In this document: positions 12,918 to 33,228 of the stretch, piece after piece | How positions within the stretch are numbered: the first letter of the stretch is position 1 | Layout: each line of letters opens with the position of its first letter | Program-made: the position numbers and the translations under genes | From: a virus | Virus record (IMG/VR): IMGVR_UViG_3300042549_006197 | Location: 1 to 64,000 of that record | DNA: 64,000 nucleotides | Direction: 5' to 3' (one strand) | Notes under the pieces: generated by a model | Seen by the model: only the letters and a program-made list of their open reading frames with translations | The model's database searches: none | Told to the model about the DNA's origin: nothing

Positions 12918-12946
12918 AATCTAACACGAATTTTTAAGATTGTCAA
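12918..12946 (-). promoter_or_regulatory. sigma70-type promoter of the porin-like gene with inverted repeat
   Basis: TTGACA (12946-12941), 17 bases, TAGATT (12923-12918). The -35 overlaps the stop codon of the last glycan gene. A perfect inverted repeat AGATTGG-TAT-CCAATCT (12906-12922) overlaps the -10 and start site, and may be an operator or a 5' hairpin. Confidence 0.75.
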
Positions 12947-13737
12947 CCCTGAGCAACGGCTGAGTTTTCCACAACTCTTCCAAGATAAGGATCATAATCC
13001 ATAAGTTCCTCAATCTTCAATTCAGCTCCACGCTGACTCCAGAAATTAAGAAGACCATCATGATTACCCTTGTGGAACGCATCAATATGATCTGGATGAA
13101 TTGATGATCCAAGTTCAATTTTATAAAGAAGAAGAGGAATACTATAAGTATTACCCGAATTATAGATAAGATCGTCCGCAACAGGACGTGGCTTGCATCC
13201 ATTATCGAGTTTATACTTTTCTCCTCGAACATGATGCTTCATTAATTTTTCAGCATGATGACGAGTGATCATATAACAAGCAGTAGAAAAATCATTCACG
13301 AAACGCTTGTGCAATTTGACATGAAGATCTCCAGTGCAAATAATTGCAATCTGCACTACATCCCAATCATAAGGAATGCGACCATAGAAATCATTCCAAG
13401 TAAAATTCCAGAACCTTACAAGATCTAAATTGCAATCATCTTCCATCATGATAGCATAGGGACTATCGGACGTTTCGAGCCAATGTTTGATTGCTTTTAG
13501 GTGTGATGTGGTACATCCAATTTCACCTGAAGTCATCATCTCTGGATAGCGACCAGAAATAATATCACTCAGATCATCTTCTCTACCATCATATGCGGAG
13601 ATTCGAGTATAGTTTTCAATCTCCCAATACTTGAACTGATCTTCCATGTATTGCCATCTATCTGGTTGCCCATCAAGATTGATGCAATAGATTGGACCAA
13701 TATTTTTTAATTTAAAAGTCGATTTATTTCTATCCAT
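12943..13737 (-). CDS. Glycosyltransferase family 25 (LPS-type)
   Basis: GT25-like transferase, a family that adds galactose or glucose in lipopolysaccharide cores, 264 residues. Diagnostic features are YCINLDGQPDRWQYME near the N-terminus, IGCTTSHLKAIKHWLE and the acidic MMEDDCNLD motif about residue 95. No signal peptide or membrane segment, so it acts in the cytoplasm. It is the last gene of the 13-gene glycan operon and its start overlaps the previous stop (TAATG). Confidence 0.88.
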   Translation of the reverse strand: MDRNKSTFKLKNIGPIYCINLDGQPDRWQYMEDQFKYWEIENYTRISAYDGREDDLSDIISGRYPEMMTSGEIGCTTSHLKAIKHWLETSDSPYAIMMEDDCNLDLVRFWNFTWNDFYGRIPYDWDVVQIAIICTGDLHVKLHKRFVNDFSTACYMITRHHAEKLMKHHVRGEKYKLDNGCKPRPVADDLIYNSGNTYSIPLLLYKIELGSSIHPDHIDAFHKGNHDGLLNFWSQRGAELKIEELMDYDPYLGRVVENSAVAQG

Positions 13738-14519
13738 TAGACTTGATATACGGCTCCGTGTTGATAAGTAAACCCCGTGACGGGTTGAATGTTTTCTTGT
13801 GGCATGAACAGATTGACCCCTAAGAATTTAATAGGAGCATCACCCCATCTCTTAGTATAGATTCCACCATGTTCGCCAATCTTATTATAAAATTCCATGT
13901 AGGGACTTGTCAAGAACCAGTCCACTTTACCCAATTCAAAATTAGTATAGAACATCATACCCTCAGGTATATGATTTGGGTATAGGTCGTTTGTAAATTC
14001 CCACAATCCTTCAATTACTTTTGGATTATCAGTTTGAACAGCAGGAGCAATAAAACCATAATAACAATGATTACTTTCAGCCCAATCAAAAATATCATAA
14101 TTCAATGGAGTATGTATAAAAGAATCTGTGTCTAATCTCAAGTAATAATTATAATTTCTTATAATACTTTGATTATACATTTCGCCGGAGAAAAATCTAC
14201 ACATGTGGCGATACCCCATGGAAAATCCTGGATGCCCCCAGGCAACAGGACCATTTCCATGAGTTGGGTGTGGAAAAAATTCTGGTATGTGACGTGCAAT
14301 TTCATTGGAATATTCTGGCACATCAAATTGAACTAGATTGTACTTAAGGTTTAAATTTGTTTTAACCTTTTCCACATACGGAAAAAATGAATCTTCTACA
14401 AAAACAATTACATCTGCAGAAGTAAACTTAAGTACATTCTCTTCAAGAAGTGCAAGAGACTTATTGAACATTTCAACATCTTCATCAGAAGATCTGACAA
14501 GATAGATTATACAGTTCAT
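13737..14519 (-). CDS. GT15-type (Kre2/Mnt1-like) alpha-mannosyltransferase
   Basis: 260 residues from ATG 14519, overlapping the previous stop as ATGA. It resembles the fungal GT15 family that transfers mannose from GDP-mannose. Supporting motifs are YRHMCRFFSG, YYLRLDTDSFI (the donor and metal region), MMFYTNFELG and the very characteristic YTKRWGDAPIKFLGVNLF, which parallels YERWGDAPVHS in yeast proteins. There is no membrane anchor, unlike the Golgi enzymes. Rare in phages; the substrate may be a surface glycan built by the neighbouring enzymes. Confidence 0.85.
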   Translation of the reverse strand: MNCIIYLVRSSDEDVEMFNKSLALLEENVLKFTSADVIVFVEDSFFPYVEKVKTNLNLKYNLVQFDVPEYSNEIARHIPEFFPHPTHGNGPVAWGHPGFSMGYRHMCRFFSGEMYNQSIIRNYNYYLRLDTDSFIHTPLNYDIFDWAESNHCYYGFIAPAVQTDNPKVIEGLWEFTNDLYPNHIPEGMMFYTNFELGKVDWFLTSPYMEFYNKIGEHGGIYTKRWGDAPIKFLGVNLFMPQENIQPVTGFTYQHGAVYQV

Positions 14520-15928
14520 AACATTTGCCACTCTTTATAGGGTATCATGTTTGGGCTATGCGTACCAATAAAAGATTGAGGATAAAATACTTTTGTGTTT
14601 GGTTGATTTGAGTCTAAGAAAGCGGACCAAAAACTAAACGTTGATACATGCAAAATATGATACTCACATTCTACCATCTTTTGTAGTGATTGAAAAGCAT
14701 TCCCACCAAATATTTCGAAATGCATATCAAAGTTATCCCTAAACCAAGATAACTTATATCGTGCTTTATTATTATCGTCAGCAAAGATATAAACTTTACT
14801 CTTTGCAGGAATTTTTTCAAATACTTTTATATAAAATTCATCATCAACATAACCATTGACATGATCATCCGCAGGACGAGTGCAGAATCTTAGATGTAAT
14901 GAAACTGTTCCAGATACATTGCTGGTATTAGTACCAAGAACATCTCTAACATCATCAAGATTTTCTACAGAGCCAAATCTAAACATGTCATTGATAACAA
15001 ACTTAGTATCAAATGTTGTGGAAAGATTGCCTTGCCAATTTAGATTTGGAAAATATTTTTTCATGTCCGCATGAGTTCCATCATGTCCACCAAGAAGTTT
15101 GTCAGAGTTGTATGATGGTGGATATAAGTTGCCACCATTCCATAGATCCCATGTACCAAACTTTGGCTCTGGCAGATTAAACTTCTTGCAGAATGAAATA
15201 ACTTCTGCCATCTGAAATAAGTTATTACCAAGTCCACCGTGCAGTGTTGTACTAATAGTCCAATTGTTAAAATCTACTGGAAGATGTTTTGCTTTTGGAG
15301 AACTGTCAATATGAACATCAATTCCCAACCACCCTAAACAACACAGTTGATATTGAGTATTACCAAAAAACTCTGGAGCATCTACAATCAAAAAGTTATT
15401 TGGGTATTGCTCTTGCAACTCATTTGCAATACGATAATATTCATCCCAATATCTTTCCGTTGCATGAAACTCATCTCTTGAATCGCTGTAATTTGGAAAC
15501 TGACTTACAGCATATCGGTTATGACCAAATCCAATCGATCTATCCTTTACGTAGCAAGGATTGCGATATCCCCAAGACGTAGCTAAAGATTTAATTGAGT
15601 GCTCTCTTCTACCACGCAGACACAAGAATTTCATGTCCGGATAAAATTCCAGAAACTCAGGAACATACTTTAAATATGAATGTGTGATGTTTGAAATCAC
15701 CCACCCATCTTGATCATGATCAAAATGAAAGGATACTCTACGAATTCTTTCTTCCTTTGAAAGACTTTCTGCATCCCAGATCAATCCATTACCTTCACTC
15801 CAAGTCTCAAAACTATTTTGATACTTAGGACCTCCACCTTTATATTTGATTGGAGTGTGATCTCTTAGAAGATAATTGGCCCGAAGAAATCCACATCCAC
15901 CAGATCCGATAATATGAAAGTTACTCAT
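14516..15928 (-). CDS. Fusion: sulfotransferase-like domain + GT11-like domain
   Basis: 470 residues from ATG 15928 (GAGGGG upstream). Residues 1 to about 215 look like a sulfotransferase: a 5'-phosphosulfate loop GSGGCGFLRANYLL at the N-terminus and FLCLRGRREHSIKSLATSW as the 3'-phosphate region. Residues from about 230 look like a GT11 fucosyltransferase: TTLHGGLGNNLFQMAEVISF, VSLHLRF and HVSTFSFWSAFL. A single protein could therefore add a sugar and a sulfate to one glycan. The GT11 part is divergent (HLRF instead of HIRRGD), so its activity is less certain. Confidence 0.75.
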   Translation of the reverse strand: MSNFHIIGSGGCGFLRANYLLRDHTPIKYKGGGPKYQNSFETWSEGNGLIWDAESLSKEERIRRVSFHFDHDQDGWVISNITHSYLKYVPEFLEFYPDMKFLCLRGRREHSIKSLATSWGYRNPCYVKDRSIGFGHNRYAVSQFPNYSDSRDEFHATERYWDEYYRIANELQEQYPNNFLIVDAPEFFGNTQYQLCCLGWLGIDVHIDSSPKAKHLPVDFNNWTISTTLHGGLGNNLFQMAEVISFCKKFNLPEPKFGTWDLWNGGNLYPPSYNSDKLLGGHDGTHADMKKYFPNLNWQGNLSTTFDTKFVINDMFRFGSVENLDDVRDVLGTNTSNVSGTVSLHLRFCTRPADDHVNGYVDDEFYIKVFEKIPAKSKVYIFADDNNKARYKLSWFRDNFDMHFEIFGGNAFQSLQKMVECEYHILHVSTFSFWSAFLDSNQPNTKVFYPQSFIGTHSPNMIPYKEWQML

Positions 15929-16736
15929 AAGCAATACCCCTCAATTCATACTCCCAACGAACATCCGTGTTCATTCTTGGAGTTCCATTCGCTTCAATAA
16001 TCTGCCCAACAAATATTCCATATTCCATTGGTTCATGTTCCGGGAATGGCCTGTTATCTTGACCGATAGGATAGATTTCAGAAAGTTGATCTCTCACATT
16101 ACCAGTAATATAAGGAATCAAACCAACACCATACGCTTGATCGTGAGGAACATGATCTCCTGGTTGAGTAGTTGGTTGTCCAGAAGGTTGAGTATTAGAC
16201 CAATGATCATGACATACATGATCAAAAGCAATCATAGGCCACACATGTCTATGTAAAATAGATTGATCATCCTCTCTATTATTTTGATGTGGGACATCAA
16301 GATTCAATTTCCCATACCGCTGATGATAGAGAGTATTATTAATACCAAACATTCCTGCCATGATTGAATAACCATGATTATGACAGTCTCTCATAAGATG
16401 ACATGCCTTATCTGTGGTTAACCATTCATCAACAGCTCTACGCTCTCTCCAAGATAATCGACTATCACAATCTCGACTAATCCACACATCAACAGTGTCA
16501 TCCAGAAAAGGAAGGAATCTCCAATTCAATGCGTCATAAGCACTGTATCTTTGACGAAGATAAACTTCTGCATCATAATCTTTAAGTCTCCAAGTATACT
16601 CCTCTGGAGTATCCTGGTCCACATAAAATCTTGCTGTCCAATCAGGATAGATTTCTTTTGCAAGTCTTGCGTTTTCTACCGCACCTTCGCAATAAAGTGG
16701 ATTAGAACCAAAGAGACTAAACGTTATCAGACGCAT
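15921..16736 (-). CDS. Glycosyltransferase-like protein
   Basis: 271 residues from MRLITFSLFGSN (ATG 16736 behind GGAG; earlier in-frame codons lie in the upstream gene). It has a nucleotide-sugar transferase look: TARFYVDQDTPEEY and VDVWISRDCDSRLSWRERRAVDEWL, where DCDSR would be the DxD metal-donor site. Family not named with confidence; similar proteins occur with capsule and glycan genes. Overlaps the methyltransferase stop by 20 bases. Confidence 0.7.
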   Translation of the reverse strand: MRLITFSLFGSNPLYCEGAVENARLAKEIYPDWTARFYVDQDTPEEYTWRLKDYDAEVYLRQRYSAYDALNWRFLPFLDDTVDVWISRDCDSRLSWRERRAVDEWLTTDKACHLMRDCHNHGYSIMAGMFGINNTLYHQRYGKLNLDVPHQNNREDDQSILHRHVWPMIAFDHVCHDHWSNTQPSGQPTTQPGDHVPHDQAYGVGLIPYITGNVRDQLSEIYPIGQDNRPFPEHEPMEYGIFVGQIIEANGTPRMNTDVRWEYELRGIAYE

Positions 16737-17313
16737 ACCACGCTCCATAATAACAATCAGATGAATGAAATCCTCCTTCAGATCCACCACTAAAAATTTT
16801 TCCAAAGTCACCTAAAACATCAGTAAAAGTTTCTTTAGTGATGAAGTGTGGGTGTGCTTCATCAGTTGCACTTCCAATACTTTCAAAAACTCTAATTACC
16901 TTTGAGGTTTTCTTTGCGAGTTCGAGTTGTTCTTGTGGGTCAAGTACGTGCTGAACGACATTGAAGAACCAAGTCTCATCAACTTGTTCTTCAATCTCAA
17001 GATCTTCATAAGGTGCTGCGATAATTTCTACTCCAATTGCTTCATAGTCCCGACGAATCTCAGCAGGCCAACGATCAATCAATGGTTCTACAATAATTCC
17101 TCTTTTAAAGTTGCCTTCAGTTAGAAGGATAGAACCCCTTGGGCCGGCACCAACTTCAACAATAACTTTATCTTTAAAGTCTTCTTTATAATCAAATTCA
17201 AGATATTTTGCAATGATTGAAGATGCATGATTATATGCTTCTCTACTTAAATCTTGATGATGTGAAAACTCCGTAGTTTGTGCCACATCCCACCTATCAA
17301 TATCAATTCGCAT
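16717..17313 (-). CDS. SAM-dependent methyltransferase
   Basis: 198 residues from MRIDIDRWDVAQ (ATG 17313, inside the end of the previous gene). The Rossmann motif VIVEVGAGPRGSILL (about residues 45-59) binds S-adenosylmethionine, followed by acidic GIIVEPLIDRW and DETWFFNVVQHVLDP. In this operon the likely substrate is a sugar or glycan hydroxyl; this is inferred from context only. Confidence 0.82.
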   Translation of the reverse strand: MRIDIDRWDVAQTTEFSHHQDLSREAYNHASSIIAKYLEFDYKEDFKDKVIVEVGAGPRGSILLTEGNFKRGIIVEPLIDRWPAEIRRDYEAIGVEIIAAPYEDLEIEEQVDETWFFNVVQHVLDPQEQLELAKKTSKVIRVFESIGSATDEAHPHFITKETFTDVLGDFGKIFSGGSEGGFHSSDCYYGAWYASDNV

Positions 17314-18127
17314 AAGGTAACTCTCGATGTTCAACAATTCTTCTGGTATTTATCAGATCTTTATGACGCTCATAAAAGATCTTACTATTTTTATGGTGCG
17401 CTTTTAAAAGCCATGGAGCAGGAGATCCCGTTTCCACTCGTGTTCCCCCCCAACAATCTTCACTTTCATAATCAATCCAATATGCACCTACAACTTTTCC
17501 AAGTTGTTTGTATGCTCGATAACAGAGATCATGATCATCCATATCCTGAGGTTCAAATGCTTCATCAAGATAATCCAATTTCTTAAGATCATCATGATCA
17601 ATCATCAACGGACCACGATTTACAGAACACCTAACAGCAAATACATCACGAGGTAGTGTATGTTTACGATCAGCATGATCTACATGATTGACAATATCAC
17701 ACCAACAATCATCAAGATCCTCTTCCATCCTCAAATGTTTTGAGTCTGGATTGAATACCCAATTATGTGCAGTTCTGGAGGTCACTGCAAATACATCATC
17801 AAAAGCTCTGAAGGGTTTTTCTAATCTTTTATTCCAATCTTGCTCCTTGATAATCATATCATCTTGAACGATGATAATCTTATCACCCTCAGCATTTTTC
17901 ATGCCAAGATTATTTGCCTTTGTTTCAAAAACATTTGGCGCATGAAGAAATTTTCTTTTAACAGGAGTACCACTCAGAGAGTCCCAGATAATCTTTTCAG
18001 AATTATCTGTGCATCCATCAATCACCACAATTAACTCATAAGGTTCTGCAGTATACTTGTAGATACCTTCGATGACTCGCTCAATCAACCAGTCTTTATT
18101 GTGGACTGTAAGAATAATACTATGCAT
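17303..18127 (-). CDS. Family 2 glycosyltransferase
   Basis: GT-A fold transferase, 274 residues from MHSIILTVHNKDW; a second ATG at 18142 adds five residues. Motifs SIILTVHNKDWLI, LIVVIDGCTDNSEK and IIIVQDDM (DxD) are classic GT2, and DMDDHDLCYRAYKQLG with DCWGGTRVE supply the acceptor-side acidic residues. Cytoplasmic; donor unknown. Confidence 0.92.
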   Translation of the reverse strand: MHSIILTVHNKDWLIERVIEGIYKYTAEPYELIVVIDGCTDNSEKIIWDSLSGTPVKRKFLHAPNVFETKANNLGMKNAEGDKIIIVQDDMIIKEQDWNKRLEKPFRAFDDVFAVTSRTAHNWVFNPDSKHLRMEEDLDDCWCDIVNHVDHADRKHTLPRDVFAVRCSVNRGPLMIDHDDLKKLDYLDEAFEPQDMDDHDLCYRAYKQLGKVVGAYWIDYESEDCWGGTRVETGSPAPWLLKAHHKNSKIFYERHKDLINTRRIVEHRELPYAN

Positions 18128-18860
18128 CTTCTTTAATTGCATTTAAGAACTGATCGATCTGACGACCAAATCCTACACCGCCACGTTCATACCAGTAATC
18201 ATAATCACATTCGACATAATTACGAAACTCATGGCCTCCAACAGTCAAACCATCTCGAATTGCAAGATTAGTCAGAACACTTTGATCGTTTCTGTGTGCA
18301 ACAAAACCTTCCAGTTCTTCACCTTCCACACTTGGATCATTGTTAATGATGCGAGGATCTAAACAATATTTTTGCCATTCAGCAATCATTTCTCTTGTTT
18401 TGTCAGTGACTTTCCAGACCATAAAACCACATTCAAGTTGACGCTCATTCCAATAGTCTTCCTCATCACAATCCATTAGAATAAAACAGTCGCGTTTAGT
18501 ATACTGACCGTTCATATTGTTGCTGATTAACAACATTGAAATGTCATCCGTATCATTCATCTCCTTCTCAACATACAGTCTCAAACCAGGAGAGAACATA
18601 TCACCACAGTCACAGTAGAGAACATAATCTCCGTCTGCAGCGTGTTCCATTGCTTGCGAAATGACATAGGGTTTCCATGCCCACCACCCAGCTCCAACTG
18701 GAGCATCAAGAAGTTCTTTATTCTCAGCATAAAAATCTGTGGTTTCTAACCATTCCCGATTATATGCATGATGACAAAATTCTTCCTCATGAATATCATG
18801 AAGATACTTTTGTTTGTCTAAAAACTTTTCGTTTGCAAATGTTACCAAATGCCAAGTCAT
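18120..18860 (-). CDS. Glycosyltransferase-like protein
   Basis: 246 residues starting MTWHLVTFANEKF. Motifs VGAGWWAWKPYVISQAM and GDYVLYCDCGDMF (a DxD-like site) suggest a nucleotide-sugar transferase of a type seen in capsule clusters. No membrane segment. Overlaps the preceding stop by four bases (ATGA) and is flanked by transferases, which supports the call; donor and acceptor are unknown. Confidence 0.7.
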   Translation of the reverse strand: MTWHLVTFANEKFLDKQKYLHDIHEEEFCHHAYNREWLETTDFYAENKELLDAPVGAGWWAWKPYVISQAMEHAADGDYVLYCDCGDMFSPGLRLYVEKEMNDTDDISMLLISNNMNGQYTKRDCFILMDCDEEDYWNERQLECGFMVWKVTDKTREMIAEWQKYCLDPRIINNDPSVEGEELEGFVAHRNDQSVLTNLAIRDGLTVGGHEFRNYVECDYDYWYERGGVGFGRQIDQFLNAIKEDA

Positions 18861-19735
18861 TTTAGTCTCTCCCTAACGTAATCTTGGTTCTCGTAGTATT
18901 CGATCAGTTGTTCTTTTGAAAGTGTTTTTAAGTATTCCCACAAAGCATTATTATTTTGCATATGTGGATTATGGAACCAAGAGTTTTGAGTTCTTTGATG
19001 TTCCAGATGATACGCATGATTATCTACTCTACCAATATTATACCCTAAAGTTTGCCATCTGTGGTGCCGTTCACAATCTTCTGGAGCATATGCAATAAAA
19101 CCTTCGTTCTCCAGATATCCATCCATATAAACTTTGCGGTTGAAGAACTGTACCATTCCATATTCAGCCCAACCTTCTCCTTGGTTGCTTGGATAGTAGA
19201 AGAATCGATCATCAAAACAGGTTGAATCATATTCTTTGATAAAGCGAGATACAAACTCATCTTTCTCAAAGTTGTCCATATCATCTTGAGTTTCAATCGT
19301 AAACCCAAGATTTACTTTGCGCTCTCCGTGATTGCCATAACGATATGGATAAACTACATCATACTCACCCTGGAGCATTTCTACAACTTTGGTATAAGTA
19401 TCTAATGGGAGAAGAAGATCAGTATCATAGTTGACCACAATATCACACTTGGATCCCATGATCATATCGTTAAGAACCTTTGTACGATGAAATGCATCAT
19501 CCGTCCGAGTTTCTTCTTCAAAGATAAAGTTTAAATTAGTAGTGTCAACCAATCTTTTAATGATGGGAAGTGCATAAGTTTCAAACCTACGCTCAGAATC
19601 TACTTCTTTGATTGTGACAGTGCAGTCAAAGTGATGTAAAAGATAAGACGTAGAAAGGATTACATTCCTCAAACGATCTCCAGTATCAATTCTTAATGGG
19701 ACAATAAAGTCCACATTTTTCAAATCAGTTTTCAT
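18857..19735 (-). CDS. GT2-like (chondroitin-synthase-type) glycosyltransferase
   Basis: 292 residues. FIVPLRIDTGDRLRN opens the GT-A fold; DIVVNYDTDLLLP carries the DxD; GWAEYGMVQFFNRKVYMDGY and YAPEDCERHHRWQTLG match the C-terminal galactosyltransferase region of bifunctional synthases (the E-D-x-E/R acceptor motif). Probably adds a hexose or hexosamine. Overlaps the previous GT11 gene by 11 bases. Confidence 0.85.
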   Translation of the reverse strand: MKTDLKNVDFIVPLRIDTGDRLRNVILSTSYLLHHFDCTVTIKEVDSERRFETYALPIIKRLVDTTNLNFIFEEETRTDDAFHRTKVLNDMIMGSKCDIVVNYDTDLLLPLDTYTKVVEMLQGEYDVVYPYRYGNHGERKVNLGFTIETQDDMDNFEKDEFVSRFIKEYDSTCFDDRFFYYPSNQGEGWAEYGMVQFFNRKVYMDGYLENEGFIAYAPEDCERHHRWQTLGYNIGRVDNHAYHLEHQRTQNSWFHNPHMQNNNALWEYLKTLSKEQLIEYYENQDYVRERLK

Positions 19736-20534
19736 TTACCATACTCCATTCTTCTGGGAATAAATCCTTCGTTAATTTATCTGCATTATTAGGTCCAAAC
19801 CATTTTGATGGATAGACAACTTTCTTATCTTTGTTTCTAGAAAGCCATGCACCCCACCAAGAGAATGTGGAGTTAGCAATAATAAAATCAGAACACATTG
19901 ACATCAAACACAAGTCCACATAAGAACTGCCGCTTTCACATACGGAAAATCTATCTGATGAAAACAGTTCTTGTTCCTTACACCAGACAGGATCATCAGA
20001 AAAGATAACTACGTTTTGATCTTCAGGAAACTCTTTCAAAGCATTCTCATAATATTTCATAGACAAATTATGATGATTTAAAGAGTTAATTAAAAAATCT
20101 CCACGACGTATATGAAGTGCAATTGAACCCTGCATATAGGGTCTATGTGGTTCACATGCCTCTAGATATTCTCTTTTAAAAGTAAATTCATTTCGAATAT
20201 CTTCTTCAATATGCTTGAAGTATTTTTCAGATTGAAAGTATCCAATAATCGTCACATTGTCTGGACAATTATCAAGAATATCTTCATCAAAATGAAAATG
20301 CATTTCTGTTCTTGCACCATCAGCCAATAGATACCCAGTCTGTTGTGGTTGTATATCAAATACATCAAACAACTCAATTCTAAGAATGTTCCCTAGAGAG
20401 TCTTTGATTTTTTCTGAGTGATCTGGAATGGTATAACCATATCCACGTTTAGCAGCAATGCCCCTAATAGCAGCATACTGGAACATCTGGTTTCCCAGTT
20501 GTCCCATTCTACCAAGATAATTTAATCCAATCAT
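19725..20534 (-). CDS. GT11 alpha-1,2-fucosyltransferase-type enzyme (copy 2)
   Basis: 269 residues. Family hallmarks are GRMGQLGNQMFQYAAIRGIA at the N-terminus, ALHIRRGDFL (the HxRRGD GDP-binding motif) and STFSWWGAWLS with YPSKWFGP at the C-terminus. GT11 enzymes use GDP-L-fucose; here GDP-L-galactose made by the operon's epimerase is an attractive alternative donor. A tandem paralogue of the gene at 20509-21351, overlapping it by 26 bases. Confidence 0.93.
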   Translation of the reverse strand: MIGLNYLGRMGQLGNQMFQYAAIRGIAAKRGYGYTIPDHSEKIKDSLGNILRIELFDVFDIQPQQTGYLLADGARTEMHFHFDEDILDNCPDNVTIIGYFQSEKYFKHIEEDIRNEFTFKREYLEACEPHRPYMQGSIALHIRRGDFLINSLNHHNLSMKYYENALKEFPEDQNVVIFSDDPVWCKEQELFSSDRFSVCESGSSYVDLCLMSMCSDFIIANSTFSWWGAWLSRNKDKKVVYPSKWFGPNNADKLTKDLFPEEWSMVNEN

Positions 20535-21351
20535 CGGGAAGTAAATCTTTAGTGTCGTTATCTTTTAAAAGTTCTGGACCAAACCAGGGATCTGGTGCAA
20601 CCACAGGATTTGTACGATTCTTTTGTAACCATGCACCCCACCAGCTCAATGTGCTAGGAGAAATAATGGCACCATTACAAAGACTCATCAAACATAGATC
20701 AGTATAAGGGATAAAAGAGTTTCTGTAAACCCCATCACCTTCCATACACTTATGAGAATATTGTTGCACACTTTCATTAATTAAGAATCTTTCATCGGAG
20801 AAAAATTCTTGTTCCTTACACCATGCAACATCATCACTACAAATCAAAACCATTGCATTATCGTCAAAGTTCTCCAGAGCCTTACGATAATAATCAAATG
20901 TAGGAACTGGATGCAGATGCTCTCTACCTACATTGTCTCCACGACGAACATGAAGGAAGATGACATTATTAAACTGATCTATAAAGTCTTCACAAGGAAT
21001 TCGAATGTCATCAATGAATTCAAAGTCTTCACGAATTTCATCTTCAATATGCTTGAAGTATTTCTCAGACTGAAGATATCCATCCAGGTTTGTATTATCT
21101 GTAAAATTTTCAAAAAGATCTTCATCAAAATGAAAATGTGCCTCATCTCTAGTTGGATAAGGCACTTCACCAATATTTTTAAGATGCTTCAGTTTAAATG
21201 GATGGTGAATTCCATAGTTGGCAGTGCGACTACCATCCTCAGGAATACACCAATGATAACCATGCTTAGCTGCGATGCCACGTAAAGCGGCATATTGGAA
21301 GAGTTGATTTCCAAATCTTCCATTAATACCTAATCGATTATAACCAATCAT
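20509..21351 (-). CDS. GT11 alpha-1,2-fucosyltransferase-type enzyme (copy 1)
   Basis: 280 residues. NGRFGNQLFQYAALRGIAAK, FLHVRRGDNVG and STLSWWGAWLQ are the GT11 motifs, in the same order as the downstream copy. The two copies share local wording (RGIAAKxGY, DEDxxxN, GYxQSEKYFKHIE), so they arose by duplication. Its start overlaps the UDP-sugar dehydrogenase stop (ATGA). Confidence 0.93.
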   Translation of the reverse strand: MIGYNRLGINGRFGNQLFQYAALRGIAAKHGYHWCIPEDGSRTANYGIHHPFKLKHLKNIGEVPYPTRDEAHFHFDEDLFENFTDNTNLDGYLQSEKYFKHIEDEIREDFEFIDDIRIPCEDFIDQFNNVIFLHVRRGDNVGREHLHPVPTFDYYRKALENFDDNAMVLICSDDVAWCKEQEFFSDERFLINESVQQYSHKCMEGDGVYRNSFIPYTDLCLMSLCNGAIISPSTLSWWGAWLQKNRTNPVVAPDPWFGPELLKDNDTKDLLPDDWIKLSW

Positions 21352-22463
21352 AACTCAATCCAGAATACTTCTTCGTTAGGAATACCAAAGATAATTCTAT
21401 CATCACATTGAGATTTTACATAGTCCTCAACGACATAAACCCTATAACCGTGATTCAAAAGGTTCAAGCACAGACGATATTGCTGACTCTCAGTAATGAT
21501 ATCTGTTCCTTCTTTGTAGGAAACATAATGAAATGCAAAAGGAAGATTCCTTTCATTCTTCTTCATGAAATAGTTCGTGAGGAAGATTGCATGTTCATCA
21601 TTAAAATTATCAGTTGTATATCCAAGGTTATAAACGAGACCCATCTTCTTAGCGAAAGATGCAAAAGAGCGATTGTCTCTTGGCAGACATGGACCACCAT
21701 ACCCATAACCATACTTAAGGAACTTTCTTCCTACTCGACTGTCATCACCGATAGCACCAAGGACTGTATCAATCTCATCTTCAAGGCCAGCGAGAGTCAT
21801 AACTTCGCCAAGCATATTTGCATAACTGATCTTGGTGGTAAGGAAACAGTTCGTTGCAAGTTTTACAATCTCTGCTGCCTTTGTAGACATGAAGTTAATC
21901 TTTGGTTCGGTTACCTGAATTGCATGATACATTTCAGATAATTTATCATACACATCATTATTGTAACCTCCAATCAGAACCATATCAGCTCTTTGAAGAT
22001 CTCGAACGATTGTTCCTTGTGCAATGAACTCTGGATTATAAAATACATTGACTCCACATTCATCTAATGCATCTTGGAATGAATCACAGTCTCCTGGATT
22101 TGTGGTGCATCCAACGATCAGAGTTTTACCTTCAACAGAAAACTCTGCATTTTGGAAATCCTTTACTACTTCCCACACAGCACTTACATCATAATCCCCA
22201 GAAGGAAGTGATGGTGTTGCAACAAGAGTAAAGATAAGATCACACTGTTTAATAACTTCTACGTTATCAACAACTGCCACAAAATTCTTAGCATCATCAA
22301 GCAGTTCTTCTACTTGAGGCTCATTAGTGGTAATGACTCTATTGTTCAGACCGTCAACATAATCGTGGCGGCAATCAGAAACGATAACATCATAACCTGC
22401 TTTTTCCAGAAGAAGAGCAAGGCAGATACCAAGTCTGCCTGCTCCGATGACTCCAATTTTCAT
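21348..22463 (-). CDS. UDP-glucose / GDP-mannose 6-dehydrogenase family
   Basis: Oxidises the C6 hydroxyl of a nucleotide sugar to a uronic acid with two NAD+, 371 residues. N-terminal Rossmann loop MKIGVIGAGRLG, central TNEP and NPEF(I)AQG, Lys201 and Asn205 in AAEIVKLATNCF, and catalytic Cys259 in YGYGGPCLPRDN. The C-terminal domain is shorter than in host enzymes (usually 430 or more). Substrate (UDP-glucose against GDP-mannose or UDP-HexNAc) cannot be told from sequence. It consumes NAD supplied in part by the adjacent NadE. Confidence 0.9.
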   Translation of the reverse strand: MKIGVIGAGRLGICLALLLEKAGYDVIVSDCRHDYVDGLNNRVITTNEPQVEELLDDAKNFVAVVDNVEVIKQCDLIFTLVATPSLPSGDYDVSAVWEVVKDFQNAEFSVEGKTLIVGCTTNPGDCDSFQDALDECGVNVFYNPEFIAQGTIVRDLQRADMVLIGGYNNDVYDKLSEMYHAIQVTEPKINFMSTKAAEIVKLATNCFLTTKISYANMLGEVMTLAGLEDEIDTVLGAIGDDSRVGRKFLKYGYGYGGPCLPRDNRSFASFAKKMGLVYNLGYTTDNFNDEHAIFLTNYFMKKNERNLPFAFHYVSYKEGTDIITESQQYRLCLNLLNHGYRVYVVEDYVKSQCDDRIIFGIPNEEVFWIEL

Positions 22464-23200
22464 AGTTTAAATGTGGGGATGGGTTCCATTTTATGTTTGT
22501 TTTGGGAGTTGAATTTTTGAAGAACTTCAACACCAGGACCAGTTCCGTACTCCATTGCTTCTTCCAGTTGAACATATGAAGCTCCAAGTTGATCTTCATC
22601 TGTTCTACCATCATCCCACAGACCATCTGTAGGAGCAGCGTTAATAATACGTTCGTCTACACCAAAGTGTTTGCCAAGTTCCCATACTTCAGTCTTATAC
22701 AGATCTGCGATAGGAGCAATGTCAACTCCCCCGTCACCATATTTAGTATAGAACCCGACACCATAATCTTCAACCTTGTTACCAGTACCCACTACAATAC
22801 CACCGACAGTTGTAGCAACTTGATAAAGAGTTACCATGCGAAGACGTGAACGACTGTTTGCAAGAGCGTGTTTGTCAGCACCAAATTCGCGCATGGTGAA
22901 TTCAAAGGTATTAAACACTTTTGAAAGATCAAACTTTTGAACTACAACGTTACTAAAGTTTGATTCAAGCCACTCAAGGTGAGCATCAGAAAGAGTTTCT
23001 TGTTCTTCCTTTTGATAGATTGGCATTCCCAGCGTGTACACAGGAAGACCAGTCTTAGCAGCAAGAGTTGATGACACTGCAGAGTCAATACCTCCAGAGA
23101 CACCAATAACAAATGCTTTAATATTAAATTGTTCTGCGTAGTCCTTTAACCAAGAAACGATACGTGTTTCAAGTTCAGAATAGTTTTCAATGCGGTTCAT
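22460..23200 (-). CDS. nadE: NH3-dependent NAD+ synthetase
   Basis: Final step of NAD synthesis: amidation of nicotinate adenine dinucleotide with ATP. 246 residues. The PP-loop SGGIDSAVS (35-43), GMPIYQKEEQE, LANSRSRLRMVTLY and GTGNKVEDYGVGFYTKYGDGG match the NadE catalytic domain; the glutaminase domain is absent, so ammonia is the nitrogen source. It sits between two NAD-using sugar enzymes, with ATGA overlaps on both sides. Confidence 0.95.
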   Translation of the reverse strand: MNRIENYSELETRIVSWLKDYAEQFNIKAFVIGVSGGIDSAVSSTLAAKTGLPVYTLGMPIYQKEEQETLSDAHLEWLESNFSNVVVQKFDLSKVFNTFEFTMREFGADKHALANSRSRLRMVTLYQVATTVGGIVVGTGNKVEDYGVGFYTKYGDGGVDIAPIADLYKTEVWELGKHFGVDERIINAAPTDGLWDDGRTDEDQLGASYVQLEEAMEYGTGPGVEVLQKFNSQNKHKMEPIPTFKL

Positions 23201-24258
23201 TGTTCAGCGTGTTTTTTCTCAATTTGTTCGTTAATCCATGCGTATGTTTTAGCAATACCCTCTTCGAGAGTCATGGAGTAGTCCCATCCTAACTTAGAAC
23301 GAATAAGATCGTTGTTACTATTGCGACCACGGACACCCAATGGTGCATTTAAAATATGTTCTTTATCAACATATTTGTTTGCTACCTTTGCAGCAGTATC
23401 CACAAGTTGATTGATAGTAACCATTTCTTCAGATCCAATATTCACTGGACCCATGAAATCACTTTCCATCATTCTACGGGTTGCTTCGATGCATTCATCG
23501 ATGTACAGGAAGGAACGAGTCTGTAAACCGTCTCCCCACACCTCGATTTTTCCTCCTGCGACTGGAAGATAGGCCACCTTGCGGCAGATTGCTGCGGGTG
23601 CTTTTTCTCTTCCACCTTCCCAGGTTCCTTCAGGACCAAAGATATTATGGTAGCGAGCGACCCGTACAGGGATGCCATGGTTACGGTTATAAGCGAAAAA
23701 GAGTCGCTCACTAAAAAGTTTTTCCCAACCGTACTCTGAGTCTGGAGCAGCAGGATATGCAGATTCTTCACGACAATCGGGATTATCGGGATCAAGTTGA
23801 TTATATTCTGGATACATACAAGCAGAACCAGAATAAAAAATCTTAGTTACATTTTTACCAAGGCGCTCGTTCATCTGACGCTGCATTTCAAGAATGTTCA
23901 GATTGATTGCGCAGGAGTTATGCATGATTTCTGCATCGTTTTCTCCAGTGAAAACGAAACCTGCTCCCCCCATATCAGCTGCAAACTGATAGATCTCATC
24001 AAATGGTTGAATATAACGATAAGGAACTGACTGATAAAAATTACCAGCATCTCCTTTCCATTCGAGAACACGAGCAACAAAATCTACATCGCGGAGATCT
24101 CCAACAACAAATTCATTTGCCTCTGTTTTGGAAAACTCAGGACGCTTAAGATCTACACCACGAACCCAATATCCTTCAGCTCGCAGTCTTTTTACCATGT
24201 GACTTCCAATGAAACCACCAGCACCAAGGACCAGTGCCTTCTTAACGTATTGACTCAT
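23197..24258 (-). CDS. GDP-mannose 3,5-epimerase-like enzyme
   Basis: SDR-family epimerase, 353 residues, closest in motif wording to plant GDP-mannose 3,5-epimerase, which makes GDP-L-galactose. Features are the NAD loop LGAGGFIGSH (11-20), AADMGGAGF, SGSACMYPE with Cys147, YGWEK with Tyr176 and Lys180, HNIFGPEGTWEGGREKAPAA, and GDGLQTRSFLYIDE. These parallel Cys145, Tyr174 and Lys178 of the Arabidopsis enzyme. First gene of the glycan operon, directly behind a consensus promoter. A related GDP- or NDP-sugar epimerase is the alternative. Confidence 0.9.
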   Translation of the reverse strand: MSQYVKKALVLGAGGFIGSHMVKRLRAEGYWVRGVDLKRPEFSKTEANEFVVGDLRDVDFVARVLEWKGDAGNFYQSVPYRYIQPFDEIYQFAADMGGAGFVFTGENDAEIMHNSCAINLNILEMQRQMNERLGKNVTKIFYSGSACMYPEYNQLDPDNPDCREESAYPAAPDSEYGWEKLFSERLFFAYNRNHGIPVRVARYHNIFGPEGTWEGGREKAPAAICRKVAYLPVAGGKIEVWGDGLQTRSFLYIDECIEATRRMMESDFMGPVNIGSEEMVTINQLVDTAAKVANKYVDKEHILNAPLGVRGRNSNNDLIRSKLGWDYSMTLEEGIAKTYAWINEQIEKKHAEQ

Positions 24259-24284: not shown

Positions 24285-24313
24285 ATCATACAGAAAAAGG
24301 AGGTTATTGTCAA
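24285..24313 (-). promoter_or_regulatory. sigma70-type promoter of the glycan operon
   Basis: TTGACA (24313-24308), 17 bases, TATGAT (24290-24285), giving a leader of about 20 bases to ATG 24258. The -35 overlaps the last codons of the upstream oxygenase gene. No other promoter or terminator was seen within the 11.3 kb operon. Confidence 0.9.
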
Positions 24314-25347
24314 GTACATGGGATGTGTATAACATCGTTAAATTGTTCCATTGAAAGTCTTGTAAGTGCTAAAAAAGTTCCAGCTTTAATTGCAAAAGAA
24401 AATCTATCCATCTGTGCCAAATTTGAAAGAGGCATTACTTTGTGTTTAATTGAAGAATCAAAAACTATAACTCTCCCCGGCTTAAAATCGACTGCCTTAT
24501 GAAAAGGTGAATCTTCGCTGTAAAATTTAATATCTCCAGCCCACACATCATCCCATTCAATATTTGGATATATTAGAATTGTTACTCCATTTGAATTATT
24601 TGAAAGATCGACGTGAGCACTTGTTGTAGTTGATTTTGTATAATGCCCAATATAATATTGTGTGAGAAATAGATCTTGTCCCAATTCATTTGCAATTCTT
24701 CTAAAATATGGTATCAAACCAGTTCTTATAAGATCCTCTTTAGACAAGTGGGAGGCAAATCTGGTGGATCGATCTTTATCTTTAGAAAAACCGTTACTTA
24801 CATGTGAACAGATATATTGTGAGTTTGTCGCAAAAGCATATAAACTATGCGTAAAATGATATGGAAACAAATTATCCATTATTTTAATATCATTTTCGAC
24901 TGAATTTTTTGAAAATGGATTTATTTTTCTATTTAAAGAATCTAAAAGAATATTATATAATCGTATATAATAATCGGATTTATTTGAGTTTAAAGATATG
25001 AGATTTACCTTACAAATTTTTACTATATCGGATAATGTTTGATTGTCCCAACTAAAATTTCCCCTTAAAATATCATTTTCTCTGTCTTTTAATAAACACA
25101 TTTCATATACTAATTTTTCAGCATATTCTCCTATTTCATTTCGTATCAATTCTCTATCATTTTCTATTGTTTGAACAGTCACATTAAAATAGCAAGTGCC
25201 GTAGATTGAATGATACAATCCTGCATTACATACGTCTTCCGACATATTTTCTTTTCTTAATATTTCATATACTTCAATACAATGGTTGATAAATTTTTCG
25301 GTTGCAATTGGAGATTGTTTAACCAATTCAATAAATTTTTCTACCAT
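24310..25347 (-). CDS. HD-like N-terminal domain + 2OG-Fe(II) oxygenase fusion
   Basis: 345 residues from ATG 25347. Residues 1 to about 100 resemble the DUF6817/HD-type domain (INHCIEVYEILR, CNAGLYHSIYGTCYF). The C-terminal third is a 2-oxoglutarate oxygenase: SAHVDLSNNSNGVTILIY (the HxD), GDIKFYSED, PGRVIVFDSSIKHKV (distal His) and DRFSFAIKAG (Arg). The substrate is unknown. The gene is visibly AT-rich compared with the glycan operon downstream, suggesting a separate origin. Confidence 0.72.
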   Translation of the reverse strand: MVEKFIELVKQSPIATEKFINHCIEVYEILRKENMSEDVCNAGLYHSIYGTCYFNVTVQTIENDRELIRNEIGEYAEKLVYEMCLLKDRENDILRGNFSWDNQTLSDIVKICKVNLISLNSNKSDYYIRLYNILLDSLNRKINPFSKNSVENDIKIMDNLFPYHFTHSLYAFATNSQYICSHVSNGFSKDKDRSTRFASHLSKEDLIRTGLIPYFRRIANELGQDLFLTQYYIGHYTKSTTTSAHVDLSNNSNGVTILIYPNIEWDDVWAGDIKFYSEDSPFHKAVDFKPGRVIVFDSSIKHKVMPLSNLAQMDRFSFAIKAGTFLALTRLSMEQFNDVIHIPCT

Positions 25348-25372
25348 AATTACATTCAAATTTTTAAAAAAA

Positions 25373-28041: not shown

Positions 28042-28220
28042 GGCAGTAATGGTGGAATGACACCTATGAGTCTGAGGAGACCTTCAGCAAATAAAGCAAG
28101 AACGACCCAACCGACACACATAGAAATAATTGCGGCATTGCGGTTGTGCTGACGAATTGCATTATCGATCATCTCCTGTACTTCAGACCGACTTACAAGT
28201 TCATCTTGTTCTTGAATCAT
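28017..28220 (-). CDS. Small membrane protein
   Basis: 67 residues: a polar N-terminal helix (SRSEVQEMIDNAIRQHNRN) followed by a hydrophobic segment (AAIISMCVGWVVLALFAEG) and a Pro-rich end. Start overlaps the preceding stop as ATGA. Unknown function. Confidence 0.6.
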   Translation of the reverse strand: MIQEQDELVSRSEVQEMIDNAIRQHNRNAAIISMCVGWVVLALFAEGLLRLIGVIPPLLPWLKITLN

Positions 28221-28366
28221 TTTTCATCTCCAAGAAATTTTGCTAAGGGATCTCTTCTGGTTTTTACAATTTCAACTGCTCTTTTATAGAACATATTATC
28301 CGTATTACCAGAAGATTCAAAGGTTTCTTTGATCTTCACCCAATTATCATAGGTGTGTTGATCCAT
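28217..28366 (-). CDS. 49-residue hypothetical protein
   Basis: Soluble, charged: starts MDQHTYDNWVKIKETFESSG, ends RDPLAKFLGDEK. The ATGA overlap with the following gene and a promoter just upstream support it. No family recognised. Confidence 0.55.
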   Translation of the reverse strand: MDQHTYDNWVKIKETFESSGNTDNMFYKRAVEIVKTRRDPLAKFLGDEK

Positions 28367-28461: not shown

Positions 28462-29634
28462 TCACCAGAAATTTATATAGGTATCCTTAAACTCCATTTT
28501 TTGTCCCATCATACCAGCATGAACTTGAAGATAGTCTTCATATCCAAAACATCCAATGTTGAAATATTCATTTGAAGAGAATTTTCTATCGTGTTGAAGA
28601 GCATCTTCATAATATTCTTTATTTGTATTATATGAAATATTCAACAAATCATTTGCCCTTTCTTTAACATCAACCCAAAACGAAGTTTCATGTTTTGACC
28701 CATAGCTATAATGCCATGCTAAAGACAATTGATAATCAAACATGTCTTTGTAGTATTTTTGATTATATTTTATATAATTTTCGTGTTTTTTATCTTCAAC
28801 AAATTGACAAATATGGGCGGCAAATCGTTTGTAATAGTATAATGATAGGGCTTGTAATGGTTCCAAAAACATTAATCTATTTCCATTATAAGAACAAAAA
28901 CGATTTTGAATCATTTTTTTGCAATATTTTGGTTCCCAAGATATATGTTTTACATCTTCACATCCAATACTTTTTCTTGCATCTTCAATACTTGTAAATT
29001 TTGAATTAAAAAGATATCCGTGTTTGATTAAGTTTTTATCTGGAAATGGAAGACCAAATTGCCAACCATGTTCTGTTGATAAATGATGTGTGTATGGTTG
29101 ACTATTAGAGCACTCTTTAGAGTAAACAAATGCATTGTTCACCGTTTCAAAAATTGGTTTTCTATATTCATCTCCCCTATCCCATCCAGAACAACAAATT
29201 AAGTGATCATACGGAATATCATTAATGATTACTTTTTCTGCATCCAAATCCACATCATATTTTTCAATTTTAAACGCATGGTATTTAACGCCACGATTTT
29301 CTAAAATATCATGAATAAATTTATTGAATATTCCACTTTCAAAATGAAAAGCAATCGCATTGGAATTAAAATAATGTCGGAAAGTATTTCCTATTCCCCA
29401 TCCGTCAAATAATATACCATTTTTAAGTGAAACAATATTTTCATCTATTAAATCGCCTATTGAGATATTTAATGTTTCTTTAATTATTCCTGCAATATGT
29501 GGAGTTGTAGATTCTCCAACATTCAAATGCGGTTTACTTGGATCATAGTATATCTCAACTTTATGTCCACGTCCAATACATGTAAGTGCAGTTATAATAG
29601 CAGACGTACCTTTTCCTAAAATTGCTATTTTCAT
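28462..29634 (-). CDS. Flavin-dependent halogenase (tryptophan-halogenase family)
   Basis: FAD/FADH2-dependent halogenase-like enzyme, 390 residues. The FAD loop GKGTSAIITAL (8-18) and the signature VGESTTPHIAG (39-49) are diagnostic, and Lys71 in LKNGILFDGWG fits the catalytic lysine position. The usual WxWxIP motif is replaced by GWQFGLPFPD, and FLEPLQALSLYYYKRF matches the family's substrate-side LEP motif. Cyanophage halogenases of this type are known (VirX1, an iodinase). Needs reduced flavin from the host. AT-rich relative to the core genome, suggesting later acquisition. Confidence 0.88.
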   Translation of the reverse strand: MKIAILGKGTSAIITALTCIGRGHKVEIYYDPSKPHLNVGESTTPHIAGIIKETLNISIGDLIDENIVSLKNGILFDGWGIGNTFRHYFNSNAIAFHFESGIFNKFIHDILENRGVKYHAFKIEKYDVDLDAEKVIINDIPYDHLICCSGWDRGDEYRKPIFETVNNAFVYSKECSNSQPYTHHLSTEHGWQFGLPFPDKNLIKHGYLFNSKFTSIEDARKSIGCEDVKHISWEPKYCKKMIQNRFCSYNGNRLMFLEPLQALSLYYYKRFAAHICQFVEDKKHENYIKYNQKYYKDMFDYQLSLAWHYSYGSKHETSFWVDVKERANDLLNISYNTNKEYYEDALQHDRKFSSNEYFNIGCFGYEDYLQVHAGMMGQKMEFKDTYINFW

Positions 29635-29651
29635 TTGACACTACTTATAAA

Positions 29652-29736
29652 CGGAAGGGGTGGGATTCGAACCCACGGATGCTTTCACATCGCTAGTTTT
29701 CAAGACTAGAGCCTTCAACCACTCGACCACCCTTCC
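29652..29736 (-). tRNA. tRNA-Ser (TGA)
   Basis: 85 bases with a long variable arm (GCGATGTGAAAGCATC): acceptor GGAAGGG/CCCTTCC, anticodon arm CTAGT-CTTGAAA-ACTAG (TGA), T-arm GTGGG-TTCGAAT-CCCAC. Confidence 0.93.
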
Positions 29737-29741
29737 AATAT

Positions 29742-29990: not shown

Positions 29991-30090
29991 GATCCAATTT
30001 ACCTTTAATCTCTTCTAATTCTTCGTGAATATCTTGATGATGAAACCTCAAGGGTCCCTGAATAAGTTTACTAATAGTTTTCTTTTTCAT
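29875..30090 (-). CDS. Coiled-coil protein overlapping the zinc-ribbon gene
   Basis: 71 residues from MKKKTISKLIQG (ATG 30090, ATGA overlap with the dps stop). The segment IHEELEEIKGKLDHVSSQM with MLQQRIDWYI is a short coiled coil. It overlaps 29742-29990 by 116 bases in a different frame; both frames look protein-like, so this may be a true overlapping pair. Confidence 0.5.
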   Translation of the reverse strand: MKKKTISKLIQGPLRFHHQDIHEELEEIKGKLDHVSSQMQMLQQRIDWYIQTTGLRLPKSDVSERGQDLCD

Positions 30091-30524
30091 TCTTTTAAAA
30101 AGGAACGTAACATCCAAACATTTTTACCATGTGCTTCCATTAAATCTTGAACTAGATTTGCTGTAGCATATTGTCTTTGTTTTTCCGACTCTTCTGAAAT
30201 TTTAGCACACATTTCACAAAATGTCTTGTTATCAGCAAGCAATTGACTGACCATCGATTCTGCAGTTGATGAAGTTTTTGCCTCAGGAATTTCCGAAGTT
30301 TCAACAACCATACTAATTGGACCTATGGCTTTCATGCGAAGATATCGCATGTGTTCTGTAAGGCGATCAATTTCACTAAACATTGTTTCATATTGATTGC
30401 CAAACAGTTTATGCAATTGTGGAAAATCAGATCCCACTACATTCCAATGATAAACCCAGGTTTTCTGAAATAAACAGAAAAGACTTGTTTGTGCTTTATG
30501 AAGAAGTTCGTATAACTCGTCCAT
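30087..30524 (-). CDS. Dps-like ferritin / DNA-protection protein
   Basis: 145 residues from ATG 30524. The N-terminal YHWNVVGSDFPQLHKLFGNQY and EIDRLTEHMR reproduce the Dps ferroxidase signature (HW-N-V-x-G, D-x-x-x-E). Dps proteins oxidise and store iron with peroxide and protect DNA. Together with peroxiredoxin it suggests oxidative-stress defence. A late-promoter motif lies 14 bases upstream. Confidence 0.85.
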   Translation of the reverse strand: MDELYELLHKAQTSLFCLFQKTWVYHWNVVGSDFPQLHKLFGNQYETMFSEIDRLTEHMRYLRMKAIGPISMVVETSEIPEAKTSSTAESMVSQLLADNKTFCEMCAKISEESEKQRQYATANLVQDLMEAHGKNVWMLRSFLKE

Positions 30525-30537
30525 TATCTTTTTGAAG

Positions 30538-30545
30538 TATTTATA
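30538..30545 (-). promoter_or_regulatory. Late promoter motif before dps
   Basis: Exact TATAAATA between tRNA-Val and dps, minus strand, 14 bases before the ATG. Confidence 0.6.
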
Positions 30546-30547
30546 AG

Positions 30548-30619
30548 TGGGCGAAGAGGGGATCGAACCCCCGACAGCTTGCTTGTAAGGCAAGAGCTCT
30601 ACCGCTGAGCTATTCGCCC
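30548..30619 (-). tRNA. tRNA-Val (TAC)
   Basis: 72 bases: acceptor GGGCGAA/TTCGCCC, anticodon arm CTTGC-CTTACAA-GCAAG (TAC), T-arm CGGGG-GTTCGAT-CCCCT. Confidence 0.93.
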
Positions 30620-30623
30620 TAGG

Positions 30624-30696
30624 CTCCCCCACCTGGACTCGAACCAGGAACCCCAGTGTTAACAGCACCGTGCTCTGCCAATTGAGCTATAGAGGA
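30624..30696 (-). tRNA. tRNA-Asn (GTT)
   Basis: 73 bases: acceptor TCCTCTA/TGGGGGA, anticodon arm CGGTG-CTGTTAA-CACTG (GTT), T-arm CCTGG-TTCGAGT-CCAGG. Starts with T1-A72. Confidence 0.92.
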
Positions 30697-31518: not shown

Positions 31519-33228
31519 CTATTTATTTGGAACGTAAACTATCTGATTAATTTCGGGAAGATACAAATATTCCAATTCAGATCTTCTTAGAGTGTTCAAA
31601 GCATCATCAATAGTTTCTACTATTGGATCTCCAGCAAGATTAAAAGATGTATTAAACAAAATTGGAACACTAGTTTTTTTATAAAAGTCTTTAATCAAAT
31701 TATAGTAATGAAAATTTTGTTCTTCAGTTACAGTTTGAATTCTACATGTATTATCAACATGAATCACCGAAGGAATAATGTCTTTTACTCCAGGCAATGC
31801 ATCAAAAGAATACATCATATGTGGAGATTCCTCAATCAAAGACATATCAAACCATTTATGAGATTCTTCTAATAATACTGAACACGCAAAAGGTCTGAAA
31901 GGTTCTCTTCTCTTAACTCGATTCACAATATCTTTTCCATTTTTAATTCTCGGATCAAAAAGAATACTTCTATTACCAAGTGCTCTAGGACCAGCTTCAG
32001 ATTTTCCCTGAAAAATGGATACTATATTTCCACCAATTAACAAATCTGTCACATCAGAATAACTTGCATTTTCAATTAAATTTTCATTAATTTCAATTTT
32101 AAAATTGTAATCGGAGAAATTTCCACACAAATATAAATGATCCGGAACAATTAATTTTTTATGATCATTATGAATGGAATGTAATTGACATACGCCAATA
32201 CTATTTCCCTCATCTCCACACAAAGGATCTACATATAAATTAATTTCTTTTGAAAGATTTTTTTTAATAAAACTATTTGCAACAATATTTAAAGTTACTC
32301 CTCCAGTAAGTATTAAATTTTTGCATGAATGTTTTTTTAGTATTTTTTGAATATAATTGAGTTCTATTTTTTCTAAAGATTTTTGAGTTTCATAAGAAAA
32401 ATCTAACAACATTTCTTCATTTTCTTCAATATTTGTTTCCAAAAAATTAAATTCTTCTACATTTATTTTTTTACCACAAAACAAATCTGGTTTAAATGAA
32501 CCCCCATCACAAATTAAATTTGATAGAAATTTATTTTCTTTTCCGTAAGAATGTAATCCCATTAATTTGCCACAATCTTCCTCATCATATCCAAAATGTT
32601 CAGCAACATGACTATAATAATGCCCAATATCATGGATTGTCCCGTTTATTTCGGGTTTAAAATCCGATTCTATTTTATAAGCTAAAATGGCATTATTTGC
32701 AACGTATTCTGTAAAAAATATTATTTTTAAATTCTTTAAGTCTGATTCAATTTTAGATTGGGGACGATATACTTTTTTATTCAGCAATTTAAAACCTTCT
32801 TCGTAAGATGCATGAAAAACAGATGTTGTTTCATATGCATTTGTCCCATCACTCAAATTATAATTTGATCCTCTTCCATCCCAAACAATAATTAATGCTT
32901 CCTCAAAATTGGAGGAAGAAAATGCTTTAGATGCATGACATAAATGATGTGGTTTATGATATCCGTAATAATCTTTTACATTAAATCCAAGATAACGAGC
33001 GACACTATCTACAGCATAATAGGTGTCATTGTTGTGATTGTAATCAGTTATAAGCAACAAATCTATTTCTGTCGTTATTTTTTTTATTTCTTGCAAACAA
33101 TTTACAGGAATTCCCCCACATTTTTTTCTTTTAGATAATCTTTCTTCTTGATTGAAATATATTAAACTTCCATTATCAAAAAGACACGCAGAACTTAAGT
33201 GACCAATATTAACACCAAGTATTTTCAT
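31519..33228 (-). CDS. NodU/TobZ-type O-carbamoyltransferase
   Basis: Transfers a carbamoyl group from carbamoyl phosphate, through carbamoyl-AMP, to a hydroxyl, usually on a sugar or antibiotic. 569 residues, the normal family length. N-terminal Kae1-like domain: MKILGVNIGHLSSACLF, HHLCHASKAF and VWDGRGSN. C-terminal YrdC-like domain: LTGGVTLNIVANS, DPLCGDEGNSIG, FQGKSEAGPRALGNRSIL and SFNLAGDPIVET. Strongly AT-rich, so probably acquired. A glycan or small-molecule substrate is likely but unknown. Confidence 0.92.
   Translation of the reverse strand: MKILGVNIGHLSSACLFDNGSLIYFNQEERLSKRKKCGGIPVNCLQEIKKITTEIDLLLITDYNHNNDTYYAVDSVARYLGFNVKDYYGYHKPHHLCHASKAFSSSNFEEALIIVWDGRGSNYNLSDGTNAYETTSVFHASYEEGFKLLNKKVYRPQSKIESDLKNLKIIFFTEYVANNAILAYKIESDFKPEINGTIHDIGHYYSHVAEHFGYDEEDCGKLMGLHSYGKENKFLSNLICDGGSFKPDLFCGKKINVEEFNFLETNIEENEEMLLDFSYETQKSLEKIELNYIQKILKKHSCKNLILTGGVTLNIVANSFIKKNLSKEINLYVDPLCGDEGNSIGVCQLHSIHNDHKKLIVPDHLYLCGNFSDYNFKIEINENLIENASYSDVTDLLIGGNIVSIFQGKSEAGPRALGNRSILFDPRIKNGKDIVNRVKRREPFRPFACSVLLEESHKWFDMSLIEESPHMMYSFDALPGVKDIIPSVIHVDNTCRIQTVTEEQNFHYYNLIKDFYKKTSVPILFNTSFNLAGDPIVETIDDALNTLRRSELEYLYLPEINQIVYVPNK

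Follow-up and report, generated by a model that had tools for sequence, protein, structure and literature searches.

A compact, apparently virus-specific member of the flavin-dependent halogenase superfamily at a cargo site of a T4-like cyanophage

The window analysed here comprises 64 kb of a 73,163-base IMG/VR virus record whose kinship lies with T4-like Synechococcus phages. Its minus strand holds at 28462..29634 an intact open reading frame (ORF) of 390 amino acids with an ATG start and zero internal stops, exactly where the initial annotation had placed a flavin-dependent halogenase (FDH) in an AT-rich insert. The gene is indeed AT-rich: its GC content of 29.5%, compared with 37.1% for the window, is the seventh lowest among 57 ORFs, and sibling copies have 27.5–28.8%. 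The window has five copies of the T4-type late promoter TATAAATA, about the number that chance would give, and none of them lies directly at the halogenase-like gene. A search of the 73-kb record, which may be a fragment, for a partner flavin reductase gave no PF01613 match.

The gene is flanked on the left by a tRNA-Ser (tga) gene, detected with ARAGORN on the minus strand at 29651..29737 and unchanged in position in siblings, whether or not they carry the halogenase-like gene, and on the right by a 49-aa ORF on the same strand (28217..28366). Three sibling contigs (L199–L201) lack the halogenase-like gene and keep the 49-aa ORF (86% identity), an 82-aa ORF (95%), tRNA-Ser and the downstream ORFs (86–100%), so that the description as an insert is borne out by empty sites with matching flanks. 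In the alignment with these contigs, the TTTAAYAATTTCTTMAACAGTGTTAC found after the stop codon of the gene stands directly beside tRNA-Ser in the empty sites. The inserted unit is a bare cassette made up of the ORF and a few bases of leader, and the spacer from tRNA-Ser to the 49-aa ORF measures 1284 bases in the window versus 106 in L199. Among 80 loci retrieved via the left anchor, 44 are empty, 3 carry the halogenase-like gene and others carry different cargo; the site beside tRNA-Ser is a cargo hotspot. The other cargo includes HNH endonucleases, found at the same tRNA-Ser site in L203, L239 and L268, and a spread of cargo aided by these enzymes is plausible.

The surroundings contain further accessory genes. 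A ferritin-like (Dps-type) protein is encoded among the tRNA genes at 30087–30668 and has 29% identity to a protein at the same place in L009. At 31519–33228 lies an AT-rich gene (28% GC) for a NodU-type carbamoyltransferase, with 83% identity at the same place in L009 and missing there in L010, while L008 carries a different carbamoyltransferase (38%) at another place; judged by these comparisons, it is a second swapped cargo gene. A DUF6817 (HD-like) domain fused with a 2OG-Fe(II) oxygenase domain is encoded at 24310–25359 (29% GC) and was not found at the corresponding place in L011. A sugar cluster at 12943–24258, with glycosyltransferases of families 25, 15, 11 (three) and 2, UDP-glucose dehydrogenase, NAD synthase and a nucleotide-sugar epimerase, represents a phage glycan pathway adjoining the cargo region.

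The 390-aa protein matches PF04820 (Trp_halogenase) with E=1e-23 (84 bits, cut-off 21) and the PHROG 2928 'tryptophan halogenase' with E=2e-57; its sole NCBIfam match is far under the cut-off of that family. All 25 PDB sequences matched with phmmer are named halogenases. Based on an alignment of 68 sequences, i.e. the window protein and viral relatives, AlphaFold2 gave a model with a mean pLDDT of 93.8 and a pTM of 0.92, and the top 50 Foldseek matches of this model in the PDB are all FDHs (best E 4e-24, TM by query 0.72–0.81). These uniform matches to a high-confidence model make membership in the fold secure and, by sequence and predicted structure, the protein is a member of the FDH superfamily. 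In a maximum-likelihood tree of 51 proteins, the short forms described below, except one from a Campylobacter phage, fall on a single side of a branch with support 100/99; VirX1 is on the opposite side, together with the other long phage enzymes and three bacterial FDHs. Sequence, fold and tree thus group the protein with halogenases.

Several features on which that annotation relied are present. The FAD-site motif VGESTTP occupies residues 39–45 (29500..29520, minus strand), the codon of Lys71, which aligns with the catalytic lysine of PDB FDHs (K79 of PrnA), lies at 29422..29424 (minus strand), and GWQFGLP replaces GWxWxIP at residues 190–196 (29047..29067, minus strand). Four further features had been missed. 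At the GxGxxG position the protein reads GKGTSA, with the first two glycines present and alanine as the third. The linker after Lys71 (about residues 81–95; 29350..29394, minus strand) has 15 residues versus 54–79 in full-length phage FDHs, whose substrate-binding segment is much longer. The indole-contacting loop of PrnA/RebH-type enzymes lies in this segment after the lysine, which the window protein is missing. Finally, the stretch NGNRLMFLEPLQALSL (residues 250–265; 28840..28887, minus strand), which aligns with FVEPLESTG of PDB FDHs, has Gln261 where the catalytic glutamate (PrnA E346) would stand and reads FLEPLQALS at the Fx.Px.Sx.G position, so that this motif is not matched. The exchange of the glutamate slows PrnA about 100-fold (E346Q, PMC5727139), a Glu-to-Gln change was reported to inactivate an FDH, and Fx.Px.Sx.G is said to be present, as such or as a variant, in all active FDHs (review PMC8407142). 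Since the last motif is absent, we regard the protein as a superfamily member rather than a proven halogenase. Superfamily, fold and lysine hold, but with Glu replaced by Gln261 and the substrate module missing, the motifs support halogenase activity less firmly than initially assumed.

The window protein belongs to a larger group of short viral proteins. Two alignments were used to scan viral contigs and retrieved 382 and at least 571 candidates, redundant and overlapping, of which 80 were kept per scan; after removal of near-copies, 88 short members of 352–436 aa remained and were aligned with 16 other phage FDHs. The catalytic lysine is invariant (88/88), even in members with as little as about 21% identity. 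So are Gly40 of the FAD site, Trp191, Phe193 in place of the second tryptophan of WxWxIP, and NGN (250–252) in place of xGL; Glu41 is found in 85/88 and the full GxGxxG motif in 57/88. WxWxIP occurs in 0/88 short members versus 10/16 other phage FDHs, and Fx.Px.Sx.G in 0/88 versus 9/16. The residue at the glutamate position varies (Gln in 39, Glu in 31, Phe in 7, Ser in 6 and His in 5 members). From the lysine motif to the next conserved strand, the short forms have 12–20 residues versus 33–78 in the 16 others, where the low end of 33 is the Campylobacter phage protein.

This compact FDH-like class is large and apparently virus-only. A scan of 84,980 species genomes, which used strict patterns that distant cellular members could escape, gave no indication of a cellular origin: its sole match, assigned to 'Nonlabens xiamenensis' (L115), is a cyanophage contig. 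On this 188-kb contig (NZ_RMVE01000006.1), PhoH, ThyX and glutaredoxin surround the halogenase-like gene in the gene order of cyanophage P-TIM40, so that this species genome is probably contaminated. Plasmid matches to the class are of the long type or partial (22–24%). In the literature searched, a set without the original VirX1 paper, we found neither a published description of the class nor an assay of any of its members. Motif-guided FDH mining relies on GxGxxG, WxWxIP and Fx.Px.Sx.G (PMC12645471); none of these motifs is canonical in the 390-aa protein, a possible reason why the class was never singled out.

Between siblings, the halogenase-like gene shows a dN/dS of 0.15–0.22, compared with 0.03–0.05 in the genes for the ribonucleotide reductase small chain and the nucleotide-sugar epimerase, both conserved and from the same region, and 0.17 in the cargo carbamoyltransferase. 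It is under purifying selection at a cargo-like evolution rate, and these values point to a selected function. The loss of the catalytic glutamate and the altered motifs could be taken for signs of a degenerate, inactive relic or of a protein whose role is solely structural. However, with such dN/dS values, an ORF that is intact in siblings and isolates, and a lysine and an FAD site (Gly40 and Glu41) conserved as described, we find this scarcely credible.

A different question is whether the class kept the FDH fold and lost halogenation, so that the flavin hydroperoxide would hydroxylate a substrate directly or yield peroxide, as in a flavin-dependent monooxygenase or oxidase. WxWxIP, proposed as a guard against monooxygenation (PMC8407142, PMC5945002), is absent from all 88 members, as is Fx.Px.Sx.G, the glutamate is unconserved, and the weaker viral fold matches are FAD monooxygenases. 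On the other hand, active FDHs without WxWxIP exist, e.g. Bmp5 (PMC8407142), so that this motif is not strictly required, and the fold and sequence matches in the PDB are all FDHs. The invariant lysine also stands against this explanation. Altogether, we regard a monooxygenase or oxidase as unlikely, if still a serious candidate. To our knowledge, the FDH lysine has no role beyond halogen transfer. Its replacement abolishes the reaction of PrnA (K79A, PMC5727139) and the activity of BrvH (K83A, PMC5945002), which, together with its conservation in every short member, argues for the same chemistry in the compact class. Halogen chemistry is therefore likely, favoured by the strict lysine.

We predict, with about even confidence, that the window gene, a cargo cassette for a compact virus-specific FDH-superfamily member next to the tRNA-Ser of a T4-like cyanophage, encodes a lysine-guided halogenase that generates hypohalous acid (HOX) and acts with an exposed active site on a non-tryptophan, possibly bulky substrate. 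Reduced FAD, supplied by a host reductase, would react with O2 to the flavin hydroperoxide, which would form HOX with a halide; Lys71 would then hold HOX and deliver it to an electron-rich aromatic group. We infer the exposed active site from the missing segment: with the pocket-forming part gone, Lys71 should be open to the solvent, and a bulky or partner-presented substrate becomes more likely than free tryptophan. A protein side chain or a pigment-like or polyphenolic aromatic would be candidates. As the glutamate varies among the class members, catalysis would probably be independent of this residue, unlike that of PrnA. Gln261, the lack of WxWxIP and Fx.Px.Sx.G in the class and the lack of a PF01613 reductase in the record count against the halogenase reading. 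The retained FAD site and lysine together with the lost pocket segment would also fit an enzyme that secretes or leaks HOX, with hypohalous acid serving as a diffusible oxidant against the host or rival phages; in FDHs, HOX forms at the flavin and then moves to the lysine (PMC5727139, PMC5945002). Simple release, however, would not demand strict conservation of the lysine that holds HOX, and no signal or partner was seen, which makes this explanation very improbable.

Gene neighbourhoods give a varied picture for the compact class. The short FDH lies in the tRNA array in the window, by baseplate genes in S-SCSM1, near thyX and phoH in P-TIM40, by a late-transcription accessory gene in S-MS29 and by the major head protein in Sf-CH8, and the loci compared share no constant neighbour. 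2OG-Fe(II) oxygenases are found in 29 of 70 short-FDH neighbourhoods, and the nearest one in the window lies 3.1 kb from the halogenase-like gene. A tight link was rejected, as the excess over random positions in the same phages is just 1.4- to 2.4-fold (uncorrected p 0.01–0.2, varying with window size and redundancy). Long FDHs clearly cluster with these oxygenases (p<0.0002 at both 4 and 6 kb when related phages are each counted). In three loci (L132, L157 and L170; IMG/VR records G013, G014 and G016), islands of ~12–17 kb interleave one short FDH with long FDHs (three to four) and 2OG-Fe(II) oxygenases (six to eight), an arrangement suggestive of a phage-borne cluster for oxidative tailoring. 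A broader and more speculative idea, which we hold to be rather unlikely, is that a virus-only class with the FDH fold shed the small-molecule pocket and that its exposed lysine-HOX site acts during infection on macromolecules, be it phage or host protein, glycan or nucleic acid, with 2OG-Fe(II) oxygenases as companions in some phages.

For years, 'tryptophan halogenases' have been annotated in phages, and we know of no substrate for them. They can now be split into VirX1-like full-length enzymes and the compact class, in which the usual substrate-binding segment is missing along with two of the three mining motifs, so that it would escape searches guided by these motifs. Should the compact class prove to halogenate, the pocket segment can be dispensed with, and a free amino acid is probably not what these enzymes naturally act on; should it not, a widespread annotation of viral genes is mistaken.

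Among known systems, the closest isolate protein is the 'tryptophan halogenase' of Synechococcus phage S-SCSM1 (QFG06266.1; 47% identity over 98% of the query), which shares the compact architecture, NGN and GWxFGLP but has Glu in place of Gln261 and lies, as mentioned, outside a tRNA array. Long phage FDHs of the Syn1/S-PM2 type (L005, L033) resemble the window protein in a glutamine at the glutamate position (FLEPLQATS) and in their tRNA arrays, but have 478–491 aa, keep GWxWEIP and belong to the other clade. BrvH and Xcc4156 (PDB 6frl, 6y1w) share the FDH fold (TM 0.75–0.78), whereas their solved chains have about 490–505 residues. In BrvH, one shortened substrate loop leaves the lysine solvent-exposed and tryptophan is rejected; unlike the window protein, BrvH has a canonical WxWxIP and Glu349 (PMC5945002). 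VirX1, which the initial annotation had cited as a relative, was identified as CPUG_00131 of cyanophage Syn10 by a full-length match to PDB 6qgm and ranks 21st in the Foldseek PDB list (TM by query 0.75). It has the fold (TM 0.75–0.76), the FAD motif, the catalytic lysine and a cyanophage origin in common with the window protein. However, an identity of 19%, a separate clade at 100/99 and a substrate region about 65 residues longer rule it out as a close relative, and WxWxIP, Fx.Px.Sx.G and the glutamate are intact in VirX1. At this distance, its iodination of many substrates is not transferable to the window protein. A halogenase of the VirX1-like or tryptophan type that acts on a small molecule (indole, phenol or tryptophan) would agree with the shared superfamily and fold and with the annotation of isolates such as S-SCSM1, but the divergence from VirX1, the loss of the substrate-binding segment and of the second motif tryptophan, and the change of Glu to Gln make it improbable. 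Both the missing segment and the changed motifs argue against tryptophan as the substrate and against a substrate range like that of VirX1, and the 390-aa protein is probably neither a tryptophan halogenase nor a VirX1-type enzyme.
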